The position numbers and the translations under genes were made by a program. This document shows, one piece after another, positions 11,501-34,499 of a stretch of DNA of 36,832 nucleotides (positions within the stretch are counted from its first letter, which is position 1; every line of letters begins with the position of its first letter). Under the pieces are notes generated by a model that had not been told where the DNA came from, did no database searches, and saw only the letters and a list, made by a program, of their open reading frames with translations. Source of the stretch: a virus; IMG/VR virus record IMGVR_UViG_3300042458_000413, positions 1 through 36,832 of that record; one strand, 5' to 3'.

Positions 11501-11860
11501 TTAGTTATTGGAAAAGTAGAAGCCATCGGCCTCGAAGTAATCGTACATGAGTTCCCGGGCGTAGAAGTCCCAATCGAAGTAGGCTTCGCAAGGATGGAGA
11601 TCTCCCTTGTTCCTACCCCATTGCGGGAGATTGGAGAAGAGCCCGATCCCATCGGCAAACTCGTAAGCGAAGTCCTTATCGCTTTTGTATTCTCCGTAGT
11701 AGGCTTGATCAGCCTCCTCGAGATTGGAGAGATCCGGCTCGGTGATGCCCATGTGTTCGCAGTAGGCGATCATCGCCTCCGGCTTGAGGCTGATGTCCTT
11801 GTGAGGATAGAGATCGGCTACGAGCGTAGCAAGATCCTTGGGCTTCTTCTTCTTCGTCAT
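11501..11860 (-). CDS. ArdA-like antirestriction protein
   Basis: 119 residues. The C-terminal two thirds follow the ArdA pattern: an AYYGEYKSDKDFAYEFAD segment (about 53-70), then YFDWDFYARELMYDYFEADGF (about 93-113). The protein is acidic, as expected for a DNA mimic. ArdA proteins imitate B-form DNA and occupy type I restriction-modification enzymes, protecting incoming DNA. Typical ArdA proteins have about 165 residues in three domains; this one is shorter, so it may keep only the central and C-terminal domains. It starts with the AAGCC-ATG leader. Other antirestriction functions of this phage are the methyltransferase and the deazaguanine cassette. Confidence 0.8.
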   Translation of the reverse strand: MTKKKKPKDLATLVADLYPHKDISLKPEAMIAYCEHMGITEPDLSNLEEADQAYYGEYKSDKDFAYEFADGIGLFSNLPQWGRNKGDLHPCEAYFDWDFYARELMYDYFEADGFYFSNN

Positions 11861-19778: not shown

Positions 19779-21611
19779 CTACTCCTTGGACTGATCGGAG
19801 CCAGCATCTCCATCCTCCACCACCTCGTCAATGTCTTTCCTTGCTTCTCTGCCGATCAACTTGAGAAGAGTTGCCGGGATCAGTCCAAGCACCTCGCAAT
19901 CCCATAGGTGATTAGCCCGAGTGCCGATCAGTCTCCACTCCGGCTTTCCGCTGGCGGTCTTCTGCCGGGCTTCGCTGTTCATCTGCTTTTCATACTCTTC
20001 CGTGGCATCGACTGCGTAAGAGTGGATCCCGGCTTTACGGAGCCGATACAAAGCGTCTTTGAAAACCAAGTTCGAGAAGAGATACAACTTCGTGTACTTC
20101 TGTCCGGCTTGGATCTTCCGGGGTCGAGAGAAGGGTCGGTAAAAAGGTTTGTTCCCGGTCTGGGTTTTCTTGAGCCAAGGGAAGTCGTTGCTCGCTGATC
20201 CCTTGGTACAGTTGTACCCGAAGTGAGCGGCTTGTCCATAGACATCCCCGGTCTGATAACCGGAGTCGATCCATACCCCGGCAGGGTCAATAGATAGTTT
20301 AATCCGGAGGGCTTCGATCTGATCCCATCGCTCGACAAACTCCCAATGGATTAGCCGGGAGCGACCATCGAGTGACCAAGATCTTGCCAAGCAGTAAAAG
20401 CCATTTGCTTGCACATCGATTGAGAGGAAGCGAAGTCTGCGAAAGCCTTTGAGATCTTTGACCTCCTGGATCCGATCAGCCGGGACTAACTTGCCATCGA
20501 TGAAGCCACCTTCATCTGCCCAATCTTCGAGCATCTTGTAGTCCTGCGGAGTCACCACATGATCGATATCTTCCGGCTCTTCCGACCAAGACTCTGCCAT
20601 CTCCTTTTGTTTCCAGATCCTTCGATGACCTTCATCACCGAAGAGGGTAGCACTCTGCTTCGCCCGGATGAGACGGACGGCAAGATCTCCCCATGATCGG
20701 ACGGCGATCGAATTGTAATGGAAGCCGACCATGCCTTTCTCCGCATTGCCATTCTTGGCGATGAACCTTCCGGTCGCTCTCATCTCTGCCCGGGATCCTT
20801 CATTGTCATCCCAAGTCCGCTTACAACTGACGCATTCGTATTTGCATCCGACAGAGATCACCTTGAAGTCGTATTCATCTCCGACTTTGTAGTTCTCCGG
20901 GAAGCGGATCTGAGCCCAAGTGTAGGGCTGGCGGGTAAGGCATGAAGGACACTCGAAGGTGAACTCTCTCTGATCAGTCGAAGCATGGATCTCTGAAGAC
21001 TCGTCTCCCTCGTAAGATCCTTGGCTTGCGAGGATCACTTTCCCCAACCATCCGTAAGCCTTTACTCGGCTCATCGCTTCAGCGATATGCCCATGCTTGA
21101 ACTGCCAAGTCTCGTCAGCGACAAGCCATCGGATTGATCTGCGTTGAAGGTTGCGGATGTTGTGGGCTCCGAGAGTCCACAGATGCATCCGATCAAATTG
21201 GGAGGACTGCCATCGAGACTCTTTCTTGTTCATCCGCTCGAGAGCCGGAGGGCAATTCTCGATCAGCGGAAGCAAGCGAGTCTCATACCAATCCCGGGCG
21301 TTAGGATCTTGATCTTGTAGATACAAAGTCGGACCGGGCTGGCGAGCGATGATCCAACAGAGCAAGAGTTCCAGAGCCATCGACTTACCGCTTTGGATTG
21401 GGGCTCTGATCGAGACGAGTTTGATCTCCGGATCTACGCAAGCCCGGAGGATCTCTTCGAGCCAAGGAGTCTCCGTAGTCCGGAAGCCTCCCGGCATCGG
21501 AGAGTAAGGGATCGAGCGGATGTTCTCCTTCAGCCACTCGATGATGTCTTGCGACTCCTCGAGAGCGAACTGCCTCCGGAGAAGAGCCTCGAAGTAATCA
21601 ACTCTGTTCAT
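19779..21611 (-). CDS. Terminase large subunit (GpA family)
   Basis: 610 residues. The ATPase part has a Walker A-like RAPIQSGKS (69-77) and RWLVADETW as the Walker B region. A zinc-ribbon pair follows (ECPSCLTRQ and CKYECVSCKRTW, about 230-275). The C-terminal nuclease shows LSIDVQANGFYCL and WIDSGYQTGDVY with metal-binding aspartates. This is the lambda gpA type, which cuts concatemers at cos and drives packaging, so cohesive ends are likely. It overlaps the small subunit gene by 14 bases. Confidence 0.92.
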   Translation of the reverse strand: MNRVDYFEALLRRQFALEESQDIIEWLKENIRSIPYSPMPGGFRTTETPWLEEILRACVDPEIKLVSIRAPIQSGKSMALELLLCWIIARQPGPTLYLQDQDPNARDWYETRLLPLIENCPPALERMNKKESRWQSSQFDRMHLWTLGAHNIRNLQRRSIRWLVADETWQFKHGHIAEAMSRVKAYGWLGKVILASQGSYEGDESSEIHASTDQREFTFECPSCLTRQPYTWAQIRFPENYKVGDEYDFKVISVGCKYECVSCKRTWDDNEGSRAEMRATGRFIAKNGNAEKGMVGFHYNSIAVRSWGDLAVRLIRAKQSATLFGDEGHRRIWKQKEMAESWSEEPEDIDHVVTPQDYKMLEDWADEGGFIDGKLVPADRIQEVKDLKGFRRLRFLSIDVQANGFYCLARSWSLDGRSRLIHWEFVERWDQIEALRIKLSIDPAGVWIDSGYQTGDVYGQAAHFGYNCTKGSASNDFPWLKKTQTGNKPFYRPFSRPRKIQAGQKYTKLYLFSNLVFKDALYRLRKAGIHSYAVDATEEYEKQMNSEARQKTASGKPEWRLIGTRANHLWDCEVLGLIPATLLKLIGREARKDIDEVVEDGDAGSDQSKE

Positions 21612-22206
21612 CGATGTCTTGAGTGGCTCGCTGTTCCATCTTCGAGATCGAGTTCATGACCCGATCCTTCCACTTGCGGACTGCTTTCATGGCTTTGCCC
21701 GGCTCCTCCGGATTGGCTTCCTTCGAGATCTCCAACTCTGCTTGTTCAAGCATCTGCCGGATCTCGCCCATCACCTTGCTGAACCTTTCGATGGCGTGTT
21801 CAGCCCGGATGTATTCTCTCGAAGCGATCGATCTCTCCCGGGCTTCCTTCTCCAACTTCGTCAGCGTCATGACAGTCTTATCGTATGACGAATAGAGCCG
21901 GGCTTGTTGCGGAGACTTCTCCTTGATGGCGATCATGTACTGCTGTCGGGATACCTTGACGAGATATCTCTGACGCTCGAGGACTTCCATGAAGCCATCC
22001 GGATTTAGAGCGGTATGTTCTTCCGGCTGGTTCTCATTGGTTCCGATCTGATGCCCGGATGGAGCGATGCCTGTGGCTTGATGCCGATTGTTTCTCCAAG
22101 TCTCCGCAGACTCAAGAGAGTCGAGCGGCATCCCAGCCGATACGAGTTGAGAGATCCTCCCGGGAGAGAGGCTCCATCGCTTCGCAAGTTCCGTCTGGGT
22201 GATCAT
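21598..22206 (-). CDS. Terminase small subunit (Nu1-like) candidate
   Basis: 202 residues from ATG 22206; a TTG three bases earlier is less likely. An N-terminal HTH (TQTELAKRWSLSPGRISQLVSAGMP, about 3-28) is followed by a long helical region (EVLERQRYLVKVSRQQYMIAIKEKS and more) for assembly. HTH plus helical tail directly upstream of a GpA-like large subunit is the Nu1 arrangement; it would recognise cos DNA. The start codon shares one base with the stop of the QueE gene, coupling packaging to the modification operon. Confidence 0.75.
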   Translation of the reverse strand: MITQTELAKRWSLSPGRISQLVSAGMPLDSLESAETWRNNRHQATGIAPSGHQIGTNENQPEEHTALNPDGFMEVLERQRYLVKVSRQQYMIAIKEKSPQQARLYSSYDKTVMTLTKLEKEARERSIASREYIRAEHAIERFSKVMGEIRQMLEQAELEISKEANPEEPGKAMKAVRKWKDRVMNSISKMEQRATQDIDEQS

Positions 22207-22895
22207 CAATCAAGCCCGAGATACTTATGAGTCTGGATCGAGATCCGGAACCCATACTCGTAGCAAGTATCGATACAGAGTTGCGTGGCGTTCTTACCCT
22301 GCGAGATGGGCTGAAGCCAGATGGGAAGTTCCCGGGGATCCAGGCAATGCTCGTTCAAGAAGCCGAGCAACTTTTCGACATCGCTCTGCTTACCAATCGG
22401 CATCTTAATCTCATCGGCTCGGAGGATGGCTTGCTTGACGATTGCCCTGCCTCCGGGCATATTGATCTTCGGGCTGACAGTAATCCAAGCCAGCGGGATG
22501 TTAATCGGGTAAGTGCCGGAGGTTTCGATCTGCACCGAGTAGCCTTCAGCGTAAGCCTCGACTACGAACTTCCGGACTTCATCCGGTTGAGCCAGCGGCT
22601 CTCCTCCGGTCATGACGATGTGCTTGATGCCCGGCTTCCACTTCATGATCTTCTTGAGCAGTTGCATCCCGCTGATCCGGATGCCGTAGTTGCGAGAGCC
22701 GACCGGAGAGCCGATCAACTTATGCCATGCTTCATCCACCTCGACATCATGCTGACCCTCGAAAGCCCAAGAGTATTTAGTATCGCAGAAGGGACATCCG
22801 ACATCGCATCCCTGCGTCCGGATGAAGATCGATGGAGTCCCGGTGAGGGAGGCTTCTCCTTGGATCGTGGCAAATACTTCAGAGATGTTTAGCAT
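22206..22895 (-). CDS. queE: 7-carboxy-7-deazaguanine synthase (QueE)
   Basis: 229 residues. A radical SAM enzyme: TIQGEASLTGTPSIFIRTQGC leads to the iron-sulfur ligands Cys30, Cys34 and Cys37 (CDVGCPFCDTKYSW). HIVMTGGEPLAQPDE is the GGEP SAM-binding motif, and YSVQIETSGTYP and WITVSPKI follow. It converts 6-carboxytetrahydropterin into 7-carboxy-7-deazaguanine, the third step to preQ0. Its start overlaps the phosphoribosyltransferase gene by 17 bases, and its stop meets the terminase small subunit start. Confidence 0.93.
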   Translation of the reverse strand: MLNISEVFATIQGEASLTGTPSIFIRTQGCDVGCPFCDTKYSWAFEGQHDVEVDEAWHKLIGSPVGSRNYGIRISGMQLLKKIMKWKPGIKHIVMTGGEPLAQPDEVRKFVVEAYAEGYSVQIETSGTYPINIPLAWITVSPKINMPGGRAIVKQAILRADEIKMPIGKQSDVEKLLGFLNEHCLDPRELPIWLQPISQGKNATQLCIDTCYEYGFRISIQTHKYLGLD

Positions 22896-23298
22896 GGTAG
22901 TTCAGAAAGTCTTGGTTCGCTTGCTCCGGATCTTCCCAAGGGAAGATTACCCATCGGTCATCATTCACGAAGATGCCGTAGTTAACTGCGACCCGGGAGC
23001 GAGCCTTGAGGCAGAGAGCCCACCGGAGAGCGATTGCCTTCTCGGTAGCGATGGCGATCTCAACAGTCTCTCCGCTATCAACGATATCATCGACCCAGAG
23101 GTAGACCCCGGATGAAGGACGCTCCTTGAGAAGCGGGATCTGGAGGTAATGGGAAAGCATGACTGCCGGGATGAGCCCACCCCGGGCTTCTCCGTAGACC
23201 CCTTCCGCTCGCATTGTGAGGGGGGCTTCCCGGTAAAGGGATACGAAGGATCGCACCGACTGATCAACCTCTGCCCAAGTCAAAGCCAGAGGGCTCAT
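22879..23298 (-). CDS. Phosphoribosyltransferase of the deazaguanine operon
   Basis: 139 residues. The type I phosphoribosyltransferase signature is VDDIVDSGET (69-78), and the flavodoxin-like start shows GEARGGLIPAVMLSHYL (36-52), as in xanthine-guanine and hypoxanthine phosphoribosyltransferases. These join a purine-like base to PRPP. It lies between QueD and QueE with overlaps on both sides, so it belongs to the same operon. Known phage DpdA routes insert the free base and need no nucleotide form, so its role is open: salvage of guanine to GTP for FolE, or use of a deazaguanine base. Confidence 0.85.
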   Translation of the reverse strand: MSPLALTWAEVDQSVRSFVSLYREAPLTMRAEGVYGEARGGLIPAVMLSHYLQIPLLKERPSSGVYLWVDDIVDSGETVEIAIATEKAIALRWALCLKARSRVAVNYGIFVNDDRWVIFPWEDPEQANQDFLNYHAKHL

Positions 23299-23753
23299 CG
23301 CTTATCCTCCCGGATCGCCATCGCTGAGTTGCCCTCATGCTCGCAGACCTCGACAAGCCGGAGTTCGACCCTGCCATCATACTCAGAGTTACGGATGAAG
23401 GACTCGGCTTTCTCGTAAATAAGTTCAGCGAACTTTTCACAGCCTACTGCATCGAGGATTACAAGGTCGATGATACCCTTCTCATGCAACCGAAGATACT
23501 CAAGGAACTGAGGATCATCCTTTGCGACCAAGGTCTTGTGATCGAAGATATCCTCGAGCCATCGCTTGAGGGACTTCAATCCTCCGAAGTCTACTACCCA
23601 ATTCTTTTCGTCAAGTTTCTTGGCATCGAACTCGAACCGAACCTTCAGAGCGTAGCCGTGAAGGAAGCGACAATGCGAAAGGGCTTTCCATTGCCGGAAG
23701 GCACAGGAGAGTCCGATTGAGTGGGTAAAGGTTTTGGTCGAGCGGTAGATCAT
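23295..23753 (-). CDS. queD: 6-carboxytetrahydropterin synthase (QueD), phage variant
   Basis: 152 residues from ATG 23753, whose ATGA overlaps the FolE stop. Family motifs are SHCRFLHGYALKVRFEFD (26-43), VVDFGGLKSLKRWLEDIFDHKTLVAKDDP and VCEHEGNSAMA near the end. It makes 6-carboxytetrahydropterin from dihydroneopterin triphosphate. Canonical QueD has a LHGH zinc pair; here the second His is Tyr34 (LHGY) and an HSIGLSCAFRQW segment replaces the usual first zinc segment, so His11, His27 or Cys17 may complete the site. The operon context makes the call firm. Confidence 0.88.
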   Translation of the reverse strand: MIYRSTKTFTHSIGLSCAFRQWKALSHCRFLHGYALKVRFEFDAKKLDEKNWVVDFGGLKSLKRWLEDIFDHKTLVAKDDPQFLEYLRLHEKGIIDLVILDAVGCEKFAELIYEKAESFIRNSEYDGRVELRLVEVCEHEGNSAMAIREDKR

Positions 23754-24388
23754 GACTTGAAACCCTGCCCTTCGATGAGGCTCATGAACTCCGACTTTGC
23801 GGAAGCATTCTCCCGGAACTTTCCTCGCATGACCGAGGTGATCATGTTGGAGCAAGGCTCCTTCACGCCTCGCCACTTCATGCAGAGATGGTCGGCTTTG
23901 ACGATCACCGCCAGAGCCTTCGGCTTGATCTTCTCCTCGAGGATGTCAGCGAGTTGGATGGTCGCTTCCTCTTGGATCTGGGGGCGGGAGAAGATCCAAT
24001 CAGTCAGCCGGGCGAACTTCGACAAGCCGATCACTTCATCTCCCGGGATGATACCGATCCAGACTTCTCCGAGGATCGGAGCGAAGTGGTGCGAGCAAGC
24101 GGAGCGGATCGAGATTGGACCAACTGTGTAGATCTCATCGAGAGCCTTTGCGTTTGGGAAAGCCGTGATCTTCGGCATGGCAGAGTATCGACCATGGAAT
24201 ACTTCCTTGAGATACATCTTAGCCATACGCTTTGCAGTCCCCTTGCTGTTGTGATCGTTGGCGGTATCGATGAGCAGGGAGGAGAGAAGACCTTGGCAAG
24301 CCGACTCGACAGCCGGGAGCATGGCTTCAATCTGCTCCGGAGTGAGATCGAGATGATCGTTTGCGAACTTAGGTTGAGGGAGATCCAT
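23750..24388 (-). CDS. folE: GTP cyclohydrolase I (FolE)
   Basis: 212 residues. Motifs are GTAKRMAKMYLKEVFHGRY (50-68), SIRSACSHHFAPILGEVWIG with zinc ligands Cys98 and His101, IIPGDEVIGLSKFARL, and DHLCMKWRGVKEP with the third zinc Cys. It converts GTP to dihydroneopterin triphosphate, the first committed step to preQ0. It overlaps QueD by 4 bases and starts one base after the stop of the small gene upstream. Folate synthesis alone is unlikely, since QueD, QueE and QueC are adjacent. Confidence 0.95.
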   Translation of the reverse strand: MDLPQPKFANDHLDLTPEQIEAMLPAVESACQGLLSSLLIDTANDHNSKGTAKRMAKMYLKEVFHGRYSAMPKITAFPNAKALDEIYTVGPISIRSACSHHFAPILGEVWIGIIPGDEVIGLSKFARLTDWIFSRPQIQEEATIQLADILEEKIKPKALAVIVKADHLCMKWRGVKEPCSNMITSVMRGKFRENASAKSEFMSLIEGQGFKS

Positions 24389-24389
24389 G

Positions 24390-24653
24390 TCAGAAGTCTT
24401 GTTGAATGATGGGAGGAAAGTCAGACGGAGATGCCCCGGTCACCATGTTGTAGATGATGAACTCTTCGGCATCATCCTTATCGGTGCCAGGATCATTGAC
24501 CATGATGATCTTGATCAGTTCTTTCCCGGAGTAGATTACCCGGTCGCACATCGTGATGCCGATGATGGCTCGATCGTAATCAGAGCGAGGCTCGAAGACA
24601 GCCGCCTCATCCGGGATGCAATCGAGGATGTTATCCTTTCGCTTCTTAGCCAT
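24390..24653 (-). CDS. Small unknown protein embedded in the deazaguanine operon
   Basis: 87 residues from ATG 24653, inside the last codons of queC (8-base overlap). Starts AKKRKDNILDCIPDEAAVFEP and continues DYDRAIIGITMCDRVIYSGKE and EEFIIYNMVTGASPSDFPP; it looks like a compact alpha/beta protein with a hydrophobic strand pair. It stands between queC and folE, two essential steps of one pathway, so a supporting role or a regulator is possible. Not recognised. Confidence 0.65.
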   Translation of the reverse strand: MAKKRKDNILDCIPDEAAVFEPRSDYDRAIIGITMCDRVIYSGKELIKIIMVNDPGTDKDDAEEFIIYNMVTGASPSDFPPIIQQDF

Positions 24654-25320
24654 TGGCGTAGGTGGTCGGATCCTGGACTCCGGCAATCTGGAAAGCCTCA
24701 ATCCTCTCCCGGCAGGAACCGCATTTGCCGCAATGATGATCGCCACCTTTGTAGCAAGTCCAAGTGTCCTCGAAGGGGACTCCAAGGCTATGACCGAGCG
24801 AGACGATTTGGGCTTTGCTCATGTGGAGCAACGGAGCGGAGATGCGGAGATCATCATGTCGATGCCCTTCCGTCCCGGCTCGCAGGGAGTCGTTCATGAG
24901 CGAGATGAAGTTCGATCGGCAATCCGGATAGATGTAATGATCTCCGGCATGGACTCCGCATCCGACGATCGTGGCTTCCGGATCAGTCGAGGCGATGCCC
25001 CAAAGGATCGAGAGGAAGATCGCATTGCGGTTCGGAACTACAGTAAGCCTCATCGACTCCTCTTCGTAATGACCCTCCGGGACATCGATCGAGTCGGTAA
25101 GAGCAGAGCCCTTGAGCAAGCGACCGAAGCCGGAGATGTCGATCACCCGGTGATTGGCTTCCAGATCGGAAGCAATCTCCTTTGCGTAAGCGAGTTCCTT
25201 GGAGTGCCTCTGTCCATAGTCGTAAGAGATCAGATCGAGTTTGTATCCGGAAGCCTTGAGTAGATAGGCGAGAACAGCGGAGTCGAGTCCACCGGAGAGT
25301 GATGCGTATGCTTTCTTCAT
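24646..25320 (-). CDS. queC: 7-cyano-7-deazaguanine (preQ0) synthase (QueC)
   Basis: 224 residues, normal length. PP-loop SGGLDSAVLAYLL (9-21) binds ATP. YDYGQRHSKEL, VPNRNAIFLSI and GCGVHAGDHYIYPDCR are conserved QueC blocks, and the zinc site is Cys189, Cys197, Cys200 and Cys203 (TCYKGGDHHCGKCGSC). It turns carboxydeazaguanine into preQ0 with ATP and ammonia. There is no glutamine amidotransferase fusion as in phages that make dG+. It overlaps the DpdA gene by 4 bases. Confidence 0.95.
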   Translation of the reverse strand: MKKAYASLSGGLDSAVLAYLLKASGYKLDLISYDYGQRHSKELAYAKEIASDLEANHRVIDISGFGRLLKGSALTDSIDVPEGHYEEESMRLTVVPNRNAIFLSILWGIASTDPEATIVGCGVHAGDHYIYPDCRSNFISLMNDSLRAGTEGHRHDDLRISAPLLHMSKAQIVSLGHSLGVPFEDTWTCYKGGDHHCGKCGSCRERIEAFQIAGVQDPTTYANG

Positions 25321-26159
25321 GAAGTAATCAGTTTGGATTTAGAAAGTTTCTCGAAGCCTTCGGATGCGTAGTCCACTTGATCCTCGCTTCCGGAGATCAC
25401 AGTAAAGACCTTTGTGCCGAAGTGCCTTTCAAAGTCGATGGCAAAGTCGAGTTGCGAGATCATTGCCAACTTCCGGCTGACCGAGTAGGCATGGTTCCAT
25501 CCCCGCTCGACCCGGAGTTCAAAGGGATCGAAGCCGTAGTAGCGGATGCGATCGATCACTTCCTTCGAGGGCATCTTCTCAAAGTCCTTCTTGCCGACCC
25601 GGGTGAAGCGTCCTCTGCCCATGTAAAGGTTGATCATGGCAGAGATCGCAGACGATGCCCATGAAGCCGAGTCCACGGAATAGGGTTTGTACCGGGCGAT
25701 GAAGCCCGGCTGAGTGAAGCCAAGCCAATGTACCGGACGATCTTTCACATGATGTTGAATGCCTTTGACGAAGCCGTAGTTGCCCTTCGTCTTGACCAAG
25801 CCTCCGATGCCAACGATCTCCGAGGTCTTGAAATACTCATCGAGCATCGAGGGATCTTCTCCCCGGGTAAAGATCGGGATTGGCTTGTAGCCTCTCCGGA
25901 GGAAAGTCTTGTAATTCTCATGGCTCCCCTTCGGGTCTCCGATCTTATCGAGGGTGAAGTAGCCGTGAGGCGTGAAGCCAAGCCCATCGAGGAAGCGACA
26001 GTACTCATCGATCGTCACTTCCTTGCCACCCTTCCAAGCCGTGAAAGCCCCGGAGTCGATGTAGATCCGAACCCGGGGATCTTTCGATACCTTCCGGATC
26101 CGGTTCAACAAAGCCTCCGTCTTGAGGTAGGGGTAAGCGATGAGGAGATTGAAGTTCAC
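25317..26159 (-). CDS. dpdA: DpdA-like DNA deazaguanine transglycosylase
   Basis: 280 residues starting with GTG 26159 (overlap with the ParB gene stop). It has the shortened TGT-fold pattern of phage DpdA: YIDSGAFTAW with Asp35, IVGIGGLV (115-122), HWLGFTQPGF and YSVDSASW with Asp163 as the likely nucleophile position. DpdA exchanges guanine in DNA for preQ0. Bacterial tRNA transglycosylases are longer (about 370 residues) and have a zinc site that is not visible here. Its position just upstream of queC, with folE, queD and queE in the same operon, makes DNA and not tRNA the expected target. It could act on DNA or, less likely, on RNA. Confidence 0.88.
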   Translation of the reverse strand: MNFNLLIAYPYLKTEALLNRIRKVSKDPRVRIYIDSGAFTAWKGGKEVTIDEYCRFLDGLGFTPHGYFTLDKIGDPKGSHENYKTFLRRGYKPIPIFTRGEDPSMLDEYFKTSEIVGIGGLVKTKGNYGFVKGIQHHVKDRPVHWLGFTQPGFIARYKPYSVDSASWASSAISAMINLYMGRGRFTRVGKKDFEKMPSKEVIDRIRYYGFDPFELRVERGWNHAYSVSRKLAMISQLDFAIDFERHFGTKVFTVISGSEDQVDYASEGFEKLSKSKLITS

Positions 26160-26749
26160 TTGATGATGATGTCGGTGAAGCCTTTATCCAAGAGCCAGTC
26201 CTTCAGATCCTGGACATACTCGGATCGCTTCTCCTGCGGACATCCAAGGATGATCTTGGCTTCGATGCCGTCCAAGTTCTCCTCCGTCTGATCGACCTTC
26301 TTGAAGTCCGGAGTCCAGCCATCGAGCAAGACCTTCACTTCATCTTCTGTGTAGCCGGTGAGAGCGACTTCGACCTCATCGCTCTCGGCAAGGTCAGCGA
26401 GTTCGATCTTCAACATCTCTTCATCCCAGCCGCCTCCGATCTCTGCGAGGCGATTGTCGGCAATCACATACGCTCGCTTCTGGGCTTCGGAAAGATGCCC
26501 GAGCCGGATGCAAGGAACCTCCGGGAGATCGAGTCGCTGGGCGGCAAGCACTCGACCATGCCCGGCAATGATCCCATTCTCCGCATCGATGAGAACAGGG
26601 TTGTTGAAACCGAACTCTTTGATGCTCGAGGCGATCATCGAAATCTGCCGATCATCATGTCGCTTACTGTTCCGGGCGTAAGGGATCAGCGAGATGGTCA
26701 ACACCTTTTCGATCTTGGGTTCGTTCTGATTGTTTAGTGATTGGGTCAT
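26156..26749 (-). CDS. ParB-like nuclease-domain protein next to dpdA
   Basis: 197 residues from ATG 26749 (ATGA overlap with the previous stop). A ParB/Srx N-terminal domain is clear: LIPYARNSKRHDDRQISMIASSI, FGFNNPVLIDAENGIIAGHGR and LSEAQKRAYVIADNRLAE. The C-terminal 60 residues are acidic and have no known fold. In phages, ParB domains are often joined to DNA methyltransferases. No ParA gene is present, so plasmid partition is unlikely. The 4-base overlap with dpdA suggests joint action, perhaps choosing sites for base exchange or regulating it. Confidence 0.85.
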   Translation of the reverse strand: MTQSLNNQNEPKIEKVLTISLIPYARNSKRHDDRQISMIASSIKEFGFNNPVLIDAENGIIAGHGRVLAAQRLDLPEVPCIRLGHLSEAQKRAYVIADNRLAEIGGGWDEEMLKIELADLAESDEVEVALTGYTEDEVKVLLDGWTPDFKKVDQTEENLDGIEAKIILGCPQEKRSEYVQDLKDWLLDKGFTDIIIK

Positions 26750-27045
26750 GATAGGGTATGGTACGCTTGGTGGTAAAGTTCTGGAGATCCTGTCCAATTG
26801 TCCGGGGACAATGGGGACATTTGCGGATTAATGATTGGATTACTTTCTAAAGGTTCAATTAACTTTTGAAACTCGATGCTTTCCTTTGAGTTTCTCTTTA
26901 GGGGTTTGTTTTTATGATTAAATACACGCAAAACCCGGGGAGTCATTAAAGCCCACGCACAGTCTTTTTTTGCGTCAAAGAGAACTCTACAGACCCCCGT
27001 AGGTAATGATAAAAAACGGCTCACTTTTTTTCCTTTTTTTGGCAT
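26746..27045 (-). CDS. Unknown protein, possible -1 frameshift extension
   Basis: A 99-residue frame in an A-rich stretch, overlapping the ParB gene by 4 bases (ATGA). After a lysine-rich start it reads VSRFLSLPTGVCRVLFDAKKD, then RVLRVFNHKNKPLKRNSKE. It may have its own start at 27045, but no ribosome site is visible. More interesting is that it is in the -1 frame relative to the upstream gene, joined by slippery runs at 27024-27041, so it may be the second half of a fusion protein. Confidence 0.5.
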   Translation of the reverse strand: MPKKGKKVSRFLSLPTGVCRVLFDAKKDCAWALMTPRVLRVFNHKNKPLKRNSKESIEFQKLIEPLESNPIINPQMSPLSPDNWTGSPELYHQAYHTLS

Positions 27046-32702: not shown

Positions 32703-33167
32703 TCAGAGAGCCTTGGCGATCTCCGAGAGGATCCACTTCCGGGAGACTCGCTTGATCTTCTCTCCGGTCTTCGAGAGGTTGAAGTATTCTCGACCCTTCA
32801 CGATGCAGGGCTTGAGGAGACGAGCGATCTGACCATCCGGGAGGAGGATGTAATGCGTCCCCGGGATCGGATGGTAGAGAGCCGGAGGGAAAGATGCCGG
32901 GATCTCAAATGCCTTGGGCTGATAGCCCTCGACCTTGATAATCTCGAAGGAGGGATCCGCTTCGCAGATGAAGCCGGAAGCCTGGATCTTCTCCGGGGTG
33001 AAGTGAGCGAGGGTGATTTGGAAGTCATCGGACTTTTCATCCGGGGACTTCTTACCGATCGAGATCTTGCCTTCCATCTCGCTCGAGAGGAAGCCGTCTT
33101 GATTGATGCGGTAGGTGCAGTTGAAGATCTCGTAGCCGAGATCGGATTTAGTGTTGGGTTCTTTCAT
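32703..33167 (-). CDS. Unknown protein with NUMOD-like C-terminus
   Basis: 154 residues. The C-terminal third (YILLPDGQIARLLKPCIVKGREYFNLSKTG, then KIKRVSRKWIL) resembles the DNA-binding repeats found with HNH endonucleases and in phage regulators. The first part is soluble and acidic, with no motif. No HNH residues are present, so if the likeness is real it is a DNA-binding remnant or regulator. It starts at 33167 with ATGA overlapping the methyltransferase stop, and its leader (TTCCCACCCATG) is shared with the 30195 start. Confidence 0.5.
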   Translation of the reverse strand: MKEPNTKSDLGYEIFNCTYRINQDGFLSSEMEGKISIGKKSPDEKSDDFQITLAHFTPEKIQASGFICEADPSFEIIKVEGYQPKAFEIPASFPPALYHPIPGTHYILLPDGQIARLLKPCIVKGREYFNLSKTGEKIKRVSRKWILSEIAKAL

Positions 33168-34021
33168 GGGTGGGAAGGGGGATGAAGTTCGGAGAGAAGA
33201 TGGTAAAAGGCAACAGCGGCTACTTGCGGAACGACCCCATTTCCAAGGAGGTGAAGCCGATCAATTCGTTCGGACTCGACCATCCCTCCGGCAAGCCCAT
33301 CAACATCTCCACCCATATGGGAGACAATCGTTCGGCTGGGTTCAAAGGCTCTGGGGTAATCTCCGGGACGAGCGGGGATCCTGGATTGACTACCCAATGG
33401 AGCCGGACGGCTTGCCCAAGATTGACGCTGTGCATCGAGCCCGGCTTTTGCTGGGTGCTCTTGAGCCGATCGGTTCGATAGTCGGATGCAGTCGGTGTCG
33501 GGAAGTTTCGCAAGGATGAAGACTCTCCTCCGTTGATGAGGATAGCCGACTTCTTCCGCTGTAAACATTCCCCACGCAGTCTCATAACCTTCTCGCTCCA
33601 AGTCTCCGAGAACATCTTGAAGTCCTCGCTCGATGTGTCCTTCGACATTCTCGAAGAAGCAGTAGCCGGGTCGCATGATGGAGATGCCTTCGAGGATCCA
33701 AGGAAAGAGATGTCTTGGATCTTCCTTCCCTCTTCGGAGTCCGGCTTTGCTGAATGGCTGGCAGGGATATCCGCCAGAGAGGATGTCCACCAAGCCACGA
33801 AAGTCTGACCATGGGAAGGACTTGAGATCCGTCCAGATAGGAGCCGAGTCCAAGGCTCCTTGCTCAATCTTGCTGAGAAGGTTTGCGACCGCAAATGCTT
33901 CCCGCTCACAGTAAGCGATTGTGCGGAGATCGGGTAGAACTCTAGAGAGTCCAAGGTCAATCCCGCCATAGCCGGTGCAGAGCGACAGATGGGTTGCTGG
34001 AGAGTGAGAGGGATGATCCAT
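33164..34021 (-). CDS. C5-cytosine DNA methyltransferase
   Basis: 285 residues from ATG 34021. Motif I is LSLCTGYGGIDLGL (12-25, SAM binding), motif IV is GGYPCQPFSKAG with catalytic Cys87, motif VI is FENVEGH, motif VIII is QRRRVFILA, and motif X is LLGNGVVPQVAAVAF near the end. The target-recognition part (about 170-250) is short. It methylates cytosine in a specific DNA sequence, probably to evade host restriction; no matching restriction enzyme is seen. It starts one base after the stop of the RusA-like gene. A second long frame overlaps it almost fully. Confidence 0.92.
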   Translation of the reverse strand: MDHPSHSPATHLSLCTGYGGIDLGLSRVLPDLRTIAYCEREAFAVANLLSKIEQGALDSAPIWTDLKSFPWSDFRGLVDILSGGYPCQPFSKAGLRRGKEDPRHLFPWILEGISIMRPGYCFFENVEGHIERGLQDVLGDLEREGYETAWGMFTAEEVGYPHQRRRVFILAKLPDTDCIRLSNRSAQEHPAKAGLDAQRQSWASRPAPLGSQSRIPARPGDYPRAFEPSRTIVSHMGGDVDGLAGGMVESERIDRLHLLGNGVVPQVAAVAFYHLLSELHPPSHP

Positions 34022-34026
34022 GTCAT
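33220..34026 (-). CDS. Overlapping frame in the methyltransferase gene (268 residues), possibly coding
   Basis: This frame starts at ATG 34026, whose ATGA overlaps the RusA-like stop; the methyltransferase ATG follows 5 bases later in the other frame. The product has segments I associate with a family of phage proteins often found beside C5-methyltransferases: DPATASSRMSKDTS, FSETWSEKVMRLRGEC, NFPTPTASDYRTDRLKSTQQ and LSPIWVEMLMGLPEGWS. Both frames therefore look conserved over the same DNA. It might be a true overprinted gene or a by-product of constraint on the methyltransferase frame; I cannot decide without alignments. Confidence 0.4.
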   Translation of the reverse strand: MTWIIPLTLQQPICRSAPAMAGLTLDSLEFYPISAQSLTVSGKHLRSQTFSARLSKEPWTRLLSGRISSPSHGQTFVAWWTSSLADIPASHSAKPDSEEGRKIQDISFLGSSKASPSCDPATASSRMSKDTSSEDFKMFSETWSEKVMRLRGECLQRKKSAILINGGESSSLRNFPTPTASDYRTDRLKSTQQKPGSMHSVNLGQAVRLHWVVNPGSPLVPEITPEPLNPAERLSPIWVEMLMGLPEGWSSPNELIGFTSLEMGSFRK

Positions 34027-34499
34027 GATTGATAGATGAGGTGGATAGCGATGTAGCCATCTTGACGATCTTCGTCACTCCTTGGATTGAGATACTTTTC
34101 CAGGATCAGTCGGAAGATCTGGGCATCATCGGCTACGAGCCCGACCTTAGTCATGCAATCGACTACGGACTTCGCCATGTTGTCGACATCTGGGCGAGTA
34201 GTCTTCGGGATCTTCTTCGATCCAGGCTTCGTTGATTGGAGCGGAGAAAAGAAGAAGCCGATCCAGCAGGACACCGGGATGTCTCTGCCGGGAGTCTTAA
34301 AGTTCGGATCGCGGGAAGCGATTTGCTTTCTCATCTGGATCATCAAGGCATTCTCAAATTGCCGGAGCGAGCCCTTCTGATACTTGGCTACGAACATCCG
34401 ACCATCCTTTGTCTTGATCACCCGCCCGGCTGATTGAGCGGTTGCCCGGATGGGCTCAATCCAGAGGGGGAGGAACAGGGAGCGAGGAGTCCGCTTCAT
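34023..34499 (-). CDS. RusA-like Holliday junction resolvase
   Basis: 158 residues from ATG 34499 (ATGA overlap with the previous stop). The family signature is RPDVDNMAKSVVDCM followed by GLVADDAQIF, giving metal-binding Asp104, Asp106, Asp114 and Asp124/125. RusA resolves four-way DNA junctions made in recombination and replication, which fits the ERF recombinase, and it may also prepare branched DNA for packaging. Confidence 0.85.
   Translation of the reverse strand: MKRTPRSLFLPLWIEPIRATAQSAGRVIKTKDGRMFVAKYQKGSLRQFENALMIQMRKQIASRDPNFKTPGRDIPVSCWIGFFFSPLQSTKPGSKKIPKTTRPDVDNMAKSVVDCMTKVGLVADDAQIFRLILEKYLNPRSDEDRQDGYIAIHLIYQS

Follow-up and report, generated by a model that had tools for sequence, protein, structure and literature searches.

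XGPRT-like purine phosphoribosyltransferases (PRTases) recur in the preQ0 cassettes of unrelated phages, either as stand-alone proteins or fused to FolE. This link is the useful, and apparently unreported, part of the present analysis; no published report of it was found in the literature searched, and work of 2023, on 7-deazaguanines in phages or on the structure of DpdA, may already mention it. The case analysed is a viral record of 36,832 nucleotides (the whole stretch of DNA, from here on the window) with an operon that very probably modifies the DNA of the phage itself, the predicted base and main product being 2'-deoxy-preQ0 (dPreQ0). The core of the cassette is another case of a type already known, and extends the known set of dPreQ0 phages by one probable member that is taxonomically unplaced.

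A preQ0 gene run on the minus strand

All genes of the run lie on the minus strand, from 26797 down to 22206, overlapping or nearly touching one another and running on into terS-terL. A first-pass annotation of this DNA had described such a compact arrangement and had placed FolE, QueD, QueE, QueC and a 280-aa DpdA in it, all of which agrees with our profile searches and ORF positions. It had omitted three genes of the run, namely those for the ParB-like protein, the 87-aa ORF and the PRTase. The genes are as follows:

26156..26797, minus strand: 213-aa protein with a ParB/sulfiredoxin fold, at the head of the run (phrog_620, 2e-47; PF02195 below cut-off)
25317..26159, minus strand: predicted DpdA, 280 aa, GTG start (phrog_887, 7e-29; profile match to PDB 7ui4; fold match to 1j2b)
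24646..25320, minus strand: QueC, 7-cyano-7-deazaguanine synthase, 224 aa (PF06508, 9e-62; TIGR00364, 193 bits)
24390..24653, minus strand: small ORF, 87 aa, no function assigned (weak phrog_13182)
23750..24388, minus strand: FolE, GTP cyclohydrolase I, 212 aa (PF01227, 8e-47)
23295..23753, minus strand: QueD, 6-carboxytetrahydropterin synthase, 152 aa, divergent LHGY form (PF01242, 8e-18; phrog_2389, 8e-43)
22879..23298, minus strand: XGPRT-like purine PRTase, 139 aa (phrog_8995, 3e-14; XGPRT structure profiles; model)
22206..22895, minus strand: QueE, 7-carboxy-7-deazaguanine synthase, radical SAM, 229 aa (TIGR04322, 216 bits)
21598..22209, minus strand: small terminase subunit (phrog_57, 7e-10)

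The overlap of 4 bases between queE and the small terminase gene indicates that the run continues into terS-terL. A small terminase gene adjoins the cassette also in CRB2 and in the viral locus L045, where the entire block, terS-terL included, recurs (identity 72% for QueC, 79% for DpdA and 66% for TerL), together with the 87-aa ORF in the same position (45% identity). For every gene dN was lower than dS between the two blocks, with dS near saturation, and the block appears to be under purifying selection. In other words, the recurrence of the block under these values means that the gene arrangement is not due to chance. A search of genome contigs with TerL for a host gave no match, and PADLOC gave no dpd match on the record.

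All four enzymes of the route from GTP to preQ0, which the first-pass annotation had considered complete, have profile matches. QueE passes its cut-off (216 bits against 200) and has the CX3CX2C motif; QueC also does (193 bits against 150), with SGGLDS and CGKCGSC present and, as had been claimed, without an amidotransferase fusion (the domain is absent from its 224 aa). Two of the enzymes call for some caution. FolE has the CxHH (CSHH) and HxC (HLC) motifs and scores below the NCBIfam FolE cut-offs (154 vs 182). QueD, for which the earlier start at 23876 (GTG) was replaced by the ATG at 23753, is divergent (TIGR03367, 43 bits against a cut-off of 89), and its HC-RFLHGY motif has a Y in place of one metal-ligand His of the LHGH of classical QueD. 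Among the 82 related QueD sequences from viruses, 23 have this LHGY. Neither QueF nor TGT was found by search of the record, in line with the earlier reading, and no PHROG match suggests a QueA among the ORFs scanned; since the record is linear and possibly incomplete, the absence of QueF and TGT is provisional.

DpdA, its proposed ParB-like partner and the predicted base

Sequence and structural model both lead us to predict that 25317..26159 encodes a DpdA1-type DNA guanine transglycosylase, which would exchange guanine for preQ0. Pfam gave no match for this protein, and phrog_887 is its family match. The first-pass annotation had made the assignment depend on this region aligning with DpdA, and it does align: a profile of 30 DpdA sequences searched against all PDB sequences matched 7ui4, a bacterial DNA-guanine transglycosylase of 436 aa, at 2.6e-5, the sole other match being at 0.18. 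The alignment pairs DSGAF with DCGAF, VHWLG with VHLLG and VDS with IDS, and D35 (DSGAF), D71, H144 (VHWLG) and D163 (VDSASW) are invariant in the 30 sequences. The DSGAF and SVDSASW motifs had already been read as those of a DNA transglycosylase, and both catalytic aspartates, D35 and D163, are indeed present and aligned with 7ui4. The structure prediction proposed at that stage was also run (AlphaFold2, pLDDT 92), and the archaeosine tRNA-guanine transglycosylase 1j2b was the best fold match in the PDB and the only one below E 0.001 (1.8e-4). DpdA2 proteins lack a histidine that is conserved in DpdA1 (PMC6884629); we infer that H144 equals this residue, numbered 196 in that work, and its presence points to the DpdA1 type. 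A truncated DpdA was considered and rejected, the protein having 306 aa in both CAjan and BcepGomr. A lone distant DpdA-like protein with no cassette (48% over 31 residues) was also seen in the viral locus L001.

The run opens with a gene that shares 4 bases with dpdA and whose product belongs to the ParB superfamily by its matches to ParB-like PHROGs (2e-47). Pfam found no DndB-type domain in it, only PF02195 below the cut-off, and we therefore consider it analogous to DpdB without classing it as DpdB. Of the 38 dereplicated related viral loci that bear DpdA, 30 have a ParB-like gene no more than 1.2 kb away from it. In the DpdA tree, 35 of 39 ParB-linked rows fall on the window's side of one branch (support 95/90), and the ParB label changes 5 times, compared to 13.3 in shuffles, which places the window DpdA in a ParB-linked clade. 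The same tree rules out an ordinary member of the CAjan branch, the type of the best BLAST matches. The ParB-DpdA gene order is found also in phages CRB2 and Sonali and is already known from cluster-B mycobacteriophages. This ParB-like family is common in phages beside DNA methyltransferases, to which it is often fused; a methyltransferase fragment was discarded here, where the protein has no fusion partner and its gene is coupled to dpdA. The conserved pair offers a small two-gene system for testing the role of ParB-like DpdA partners.

Such a gene content corresponds to group 2 of Hutinet 2019 (PMC6884629), which includes CAjan and Rosebush, the latter being the cluster-B case named there. 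Both carry almost only dPreQ0 (32% of G in CAjan, 28% in Rosebush), and deletion of dpdA in CAjan abolished it (PMC6884629). The DpdA, FolE, QueD, QueE and QueC set of this group is all present in the window. As to the amidotransferases and reductases that the group lacks (ArcS, QueF/QueF-L, Gat-QueC), QueC here has no Gat, and the search for QueF in this possibly incomplete record gave no match. Since neither QueF nor TGT was found, dPreQ0 is the best prediction, and the proposal of 2'-deoxy-7-cyano-7-deazaguanosine in phage DNA, and not of tRNA queuosine, is supported as such. FolE, QueD, QueE and QueC would convert GTP to preQ0, and the DpdA1-type transglycosylase would then swap this preQ0 into replicated phage DNA in place of some of the guanines, the fraction being a prediction like the base itself. 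The ParB-like protein probably helps DpdA to act on DNA, as DpdB does for bacterial DpdA, and the product, most likely 2'-deoxy-7-cyano-7-deazaguanosine, would hinder host restriction enzymes. preQ0 in phage DNA is a known shield against these enzymes.

It is unlikely that the DNA carries a further product (dADG, dG+ or dPreQ1), made by host enzymes or through a phage gene that escaped recognition. The 87-aa ORF and several other ORFs of the window are unassigned, parts of the genome may be missing from the record, and dADG is present in Salmonella phage 7-11 although its genes had not pointed to it (PMC6884629), but no QueF was found in the record, QueC has no amidotransferase domain and the group-2 phages measured have almost only dPreQ0. 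Enzymes of the host could nevertheless convert the base. We give hardly any credit to a role of these genes in host tRNA queuosine, with more preQ0 for the host TGT. preQ0 is the shared precursor, and this role was proposed for phages with preQ0 genes but without DpdA (PMC6884629). In the window, however, a conserved DpdA is translationally coupled to QueC, and neither the missing TGT and QueF nor the CAjan deletion fits such a role.

The phosphoribosyltransferase of phage preQ0 cassettes

To judge from its sequence and model, the product of 22879..23298 is an XGPRT-like PRTase, with guanine or xanthine as the predicted substrate. It has the type I PRTase fold with a PRPP motif (VDDIVDSGET), an RGG loop and a C-terminal WVIFPWE; its profile matches XGPRT structures at 1e-22 to 4e-17, and the best folds for the model (pLDDT 93) are 1vdm, 6kp5 and 1a95. 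D70, D71, G76, W116 and F119 are invariant in 29 sequences, and D74 is kept in 90% or more. In XGPRT an Asp contacts N7 of the purine, and the Asp of DDIVD is conserved here, as in enzymes acting on 6-oxopurines with N7.

The flexible active-site loop is ca. 20 residues shorter than in 1a95 and 1vdm, and the Arg of the RGG (PPi) loop is replaced by T or Q in many fused copies, so that PRTase activity is not assured, above all in the fused forms. Both features would suit a domain that is a sensor, binding PRPP or a purine nucleotide and tuning FolE or the operon, and not a catalyst. FolE, the fusion partner, is the committed step, and PRT-fold regulators such as PurR exist. We consider this reading rather unlikely, as all copies preserve the PRPP motif (DD..D-G) together with the invariant residues, the stand-alone PRTases of viral loci L021, L024 and L030 keep the full loop and the window copy retains the R of RGG.

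Viral contigs were scanned with single proteins as queries. A PRT-FolE fusion was present in 18 of 50 dereplicated loci, and also in the isolates JG054, Bhz54, VpKK5 and MMDA13 (hosts Pseudomonas, Vibrio and Stenotrophomonas among them). No PRTase was seen in 29 of the 50, and it is therefore not obligatory. Genes of the que/fol/dpdA set lie within 3 kb of the PRTase in eight of ten dereplicated PRTase loci, and one further cluster is itself a PRT-FolE fusion. All 12 PRTase-bearing records tested have a preQ0-pathway gene (QueE in 11, QueC in the twelfth), against a QueE background of 270 in 50,697 phage records. Along similar lines, proteins labelled just "GTP cyclohydrolase" in well-studied phages of Pseudomonas, Vibrio, Stenotrophomonas and Sphingomonas appear to have two domains.

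One guanine would be freed for each preQ0 inserted and one GTP spent for each preQ0 made. The PRTase would most likely turn the guanine released by DpdA into GMP and hence GTP, the substrate of FolE, a recycling to which we give about an even chance. To the same degree, a dedicated PRTase, stand-alone or FolE-fused, might close a guanine-GTP-preQ0 loop and so be a regular part, not recognised before, of the 7-deazaguanine pathways of phages. Alternatively, the PRTase could ribosylate preQ0 or another 7-deazaguanine, opening a nucleotide route in which a polymerase, and not DpdA, inserts the base. Campylobacter phage CPt10, which has a stand-alone PRTase, is cited in PMC8306585 as reported with all G replaced, and Brevundimonas phages have a dNMP-kinase gene beside FolE-PRT. 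But the Asp that would contact N7 is conserved, while preQ0 has a nitrile-bearing carbon at that position, and DpdA-type genes are present in 13 of the searched PRTase-bearing records, among them CPt10 with its DpdA-like protein, all of which makes this route quite improbable. If guanine recycling is true, hypermodification of guanine obliges a phage to balance its purines; by our own estimate, an exchange of 30% in this 36.8-kb sequence (54% G+C) would free ca. 6,000 guanines per copy and consume GTP in equal number. The role of the PRTase is testable in phages already in culture, where, under recycling, a PRTase-dead mutant should show less modification.

Comparison with known systems

The closest layout is that of the cluster-B mycobacteriophage CRB2 (PMC6392294), with overlapping ParB-like, DpdA, QueC, QueD, QueE and FolE genes followed by terminase genes. 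However, the window has FolE and QueD ahead of QueE, the extra 87-aa ORF and the PRTase between QueD and QueE, its DpdA is just 24% identical and the phage is of a different type. CAjan and other Queuovirinae-type cassettes share the same five enzymes and the DpdA1 type, and dPreQ0 was measured in CAjan, but there DpdA is beside polymerase processivity-factor and polymerase genes, has no adjacent ParB-like gene and falls on the other main branch of the DpdA tree.

The bacterial dpd island (DpdA, DpdB, DpdC) also pairs its TGT-like DpdA with a protein of the ParB superfamily (PMC12839542), whereas no DpdC or restriction genes were recognised beside the window DpdA, no DndB-domain match was found in the ParB-like protein and DpdA has 280 aa compared to 436 in 7ui4. 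The PRTase resembles XGPRT of E. coli (1a95) and P. horikoshii (1vdm) in fold, PRPP motif and C-terminal W..FPWE, and differs in its 139 aa, the missing loop residues, its place in a preQ0 cassette and its FolE-fused relatives. Flavobacterium phage immuto and CPt10 likewise combine a PRTase, preQ0 genes and a DpdA-like gene, although their DpdA is of another type (that of immuto is 17% identical to the window's) and immuto has in addition QueF and a formyltransferase.

The gene run and its conservation

The window, a linear virus record from IMG/VR, spans 36,832 bases and yielded no tRNA genes; its head and packaging, tail and lambda-O/DnaC-type replication genes indicate a tailed phage. In one minus-strand run, from a ParB-like gene to the terminases, every gene overlaps its successor or sits one base away.

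Genes of the run, in transcription order, and two further genes of the window
26797-26156, minus: ParB-like gene
26159-25317, minus: DpdA
25320-24646, minus: QueC
24653-24390, minus: 87-aa ORF, between queC and folE
24388-23750, minus: FolE
23753-23295, minus: QueD
23298-22879, minus: purine phosphoribosyltransferase (PRTase), between QueD and QueE
22895-22206, minus: QueE
after QueE, minus: small, then large terminase
11501-11860, minus: ArdA-like antirestriction protein (Pfam 27.2 bits, barely over the cut-off of 27)
33164-34078, minus: C5-cytosine DNA methyltransferase (PF00145, 3e-28)

All four preQ0 enzymes were detected with Pfam, PHROGs and NCBIfam, the curated NCBIfam cut-offs being passed by two, QueE and QueC, and not reached by FolE and QueD. 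The first-pass annotation was right to describe a preQ0 DNA-modification cassette with DpdA (the latter recovered by profile and model), although it had not seen the PRTase. QueD is of a phage form (HC-xx-LHGY, with LHGY where LHGH is expected) common to BcepGomr, Rhizobium, Microcystis, immuto and Synechococcus phages and found in 23 of 82 related viral sequences; a Tyr replaces one metal-ligand His. Alongside the preQ0 operon and ArdA, the methyltransferase is a possible third anti-restriction layer.

A QueC scan found 63 viral loci, which dereplication reduced to 50. In the nearest of them, L045, gene set and order are identical from the ParB-like gene through TerL, the 87-aa ORF is retained, and dN was lower than dS in 10 of 10 genes. 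The PRTase belonged to the less conserved of these (identity 46%, dN/dS ca. 0.4), such ratios being rough because dS is near saturation. Gene order is also kept, without a recognised copy of the ORF, in L017/L018 and in L061, which is truncated at one end. In L018 (723-1397, G008) the phrog_887 match crosses two TAG codons at one end, which puts start placement or codon usage in question. A 7.4-kb viral contig from another metagenome (L108) encodes a TerL identical to that of the window over 405 residues and, judged by sequence, is from the same phage or a very near one.

DpdA and the predicted base

The window DpdA matched no Pfam family and, in PHROGs, only phrog_887 and phrog_7068. When eight phage DpdA sequences were combined into a profile, the single PDB match was the DNA-guanine transglycosylase 7ui4 (0.0022), which a profile of 30 viral homologues recovered at 2.6e-5, with the DSGAF, GGMV, VH-G and VDS motifs all aligning to this bacterial enzyme. 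The structural model (pLDDT 92, pTM 0.90) had one PDB fold match below 0.001, an archaeosine tRNA-guanine transglycosylase whose TM-score of 0.47 makes it a distant barrel relative. The protein has a histidine that is absent from DpdA2 and is therefore classed as DpdA1-like. Applied to these genes, the gene-content rule of Hutinet et al. (2019; PMC6884629) predicts 2'-deoxy-7-cyano-7-deazaguanosine (dPreQ0), and the earlier proposal of this base is sound. Such predictions held for the phages CAjan and Rosebush; dADG in phage 7-11 was not foreseen from gene content (PMC6884629).

Some related cassettes carry two tandem DpdA genes (L049, 5786-6613 and 7142-7972; L055, 5766-6593 and 7142-7972), and in Arthrobacter phage Sonali gp81 is annotated as a second queuine tRNA-ribosyltransferase. 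In Flavobacterium phage immuto (L007, 8135-9612) a formyltransferase gene (PF00551) comes shortly after the DpdA-like gene, with QueF nearby, so that the modified base may be a formylated one of the preQ1 type.

The phosphoribosyltransferase

In the PRTase (139 aa), an RGG loop is present, VDDIVDSGET forms the PRPP motif and WVIFPWE stands at the C-terminus; by both profile and model its closest structural relatives are xanthine-guanine phosphoribosyltransferases (XGPRTs). Scanning with it found 29 viral loci. A stand-alone PRTase was recognised in 10 loci after dereplication, and in 8 of these, genes of the que, folE or dpdA type lay within 3 kb; a further cluster (L025/L026) proved to be a PRT-FolE fusion. 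When 12 PRTase-bearing records, including those without such a neighbour, were searched whole, 11 encoded QueE and the remaining one QueC and QueD; the background rate of QueE in the phage collection is 270 of 50,697 records. Among the 50 dereplicated QueC loci the domain is fused N-terminally to FolE in 18 and stand-alone in three. Pfam matches to the fused domain mostly stay below the cut-off, exceeding it only in L056, so its assignment is based on the family profile and conserved motifs. Fusions of 295-300 aa occur in the isolates JG054, Bhz54, VpKK5 and MMDA13, annotated as GTP cyclohydrolase only. A stand-alone PRTase also occurs in Campylobacter phage CPt10, together with a DpdA-like protein (NC_027996, 54372-55133; 44% identity to that of immuto); phages of its kind had been grouped with those lacking DpdA (PMC6884629). 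The literature searched, which did not extend to the most relevant 2023 papers, held no report of a PRTase linked to preQ0 cassettes.

Most likely, as established families and measured relatives indicate, the enzymes from FolE to QueC make preQ0 and DpdA swaps it for guanine in DNA. The likeliest further step, an inference, is that the PRTase would return the released guanine as GMP, which host kinases would convert to GTP. In XGPRT, an Asp of DD..D contacts N7; its conservation here favours guanine over preQ0. Room should be left for a PRTase acting as a sensor, as its flexible loop is short and the RGG arginine is lost in fused copies, but the FolE fusion, the co-occurrence, the conserved Asp and the one-to-one stoichiometry count for guanine recycling.

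The proposed ParB-like partner and known cassettes

A ParB-like gene lies within 1.2 kb of DpdA in 30 of 38 dereplicated DpdA-bearing loci. ParB-linked proteins cluster strongly in the DpdA tree: labels change 5 times, whereas shuffling gave 13.3, and 35 of 39 lie on the same side of a 95/90 branch as the window protein, with the type of CAjan, BcepGomr and the Rhizobium phage falling separately. Bacterial DpdB has been described as a ParB-like ATPase aiding preQ0 insertion (PMC12839542), and the gene in the cluster-B mycobacteriophage CRB2 was already proposed as a possible DpdB homologue (PMC6392294). Both DpdB and the window protein are ParB-like, but the latter gave no match to the DndB-type domain and is therefore not classed as DpdB; it may still work like it, most likely assisting the exchange. 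The operon's core belongs to a known kind of cassette, and it is the PRTase that raises it above just another member.
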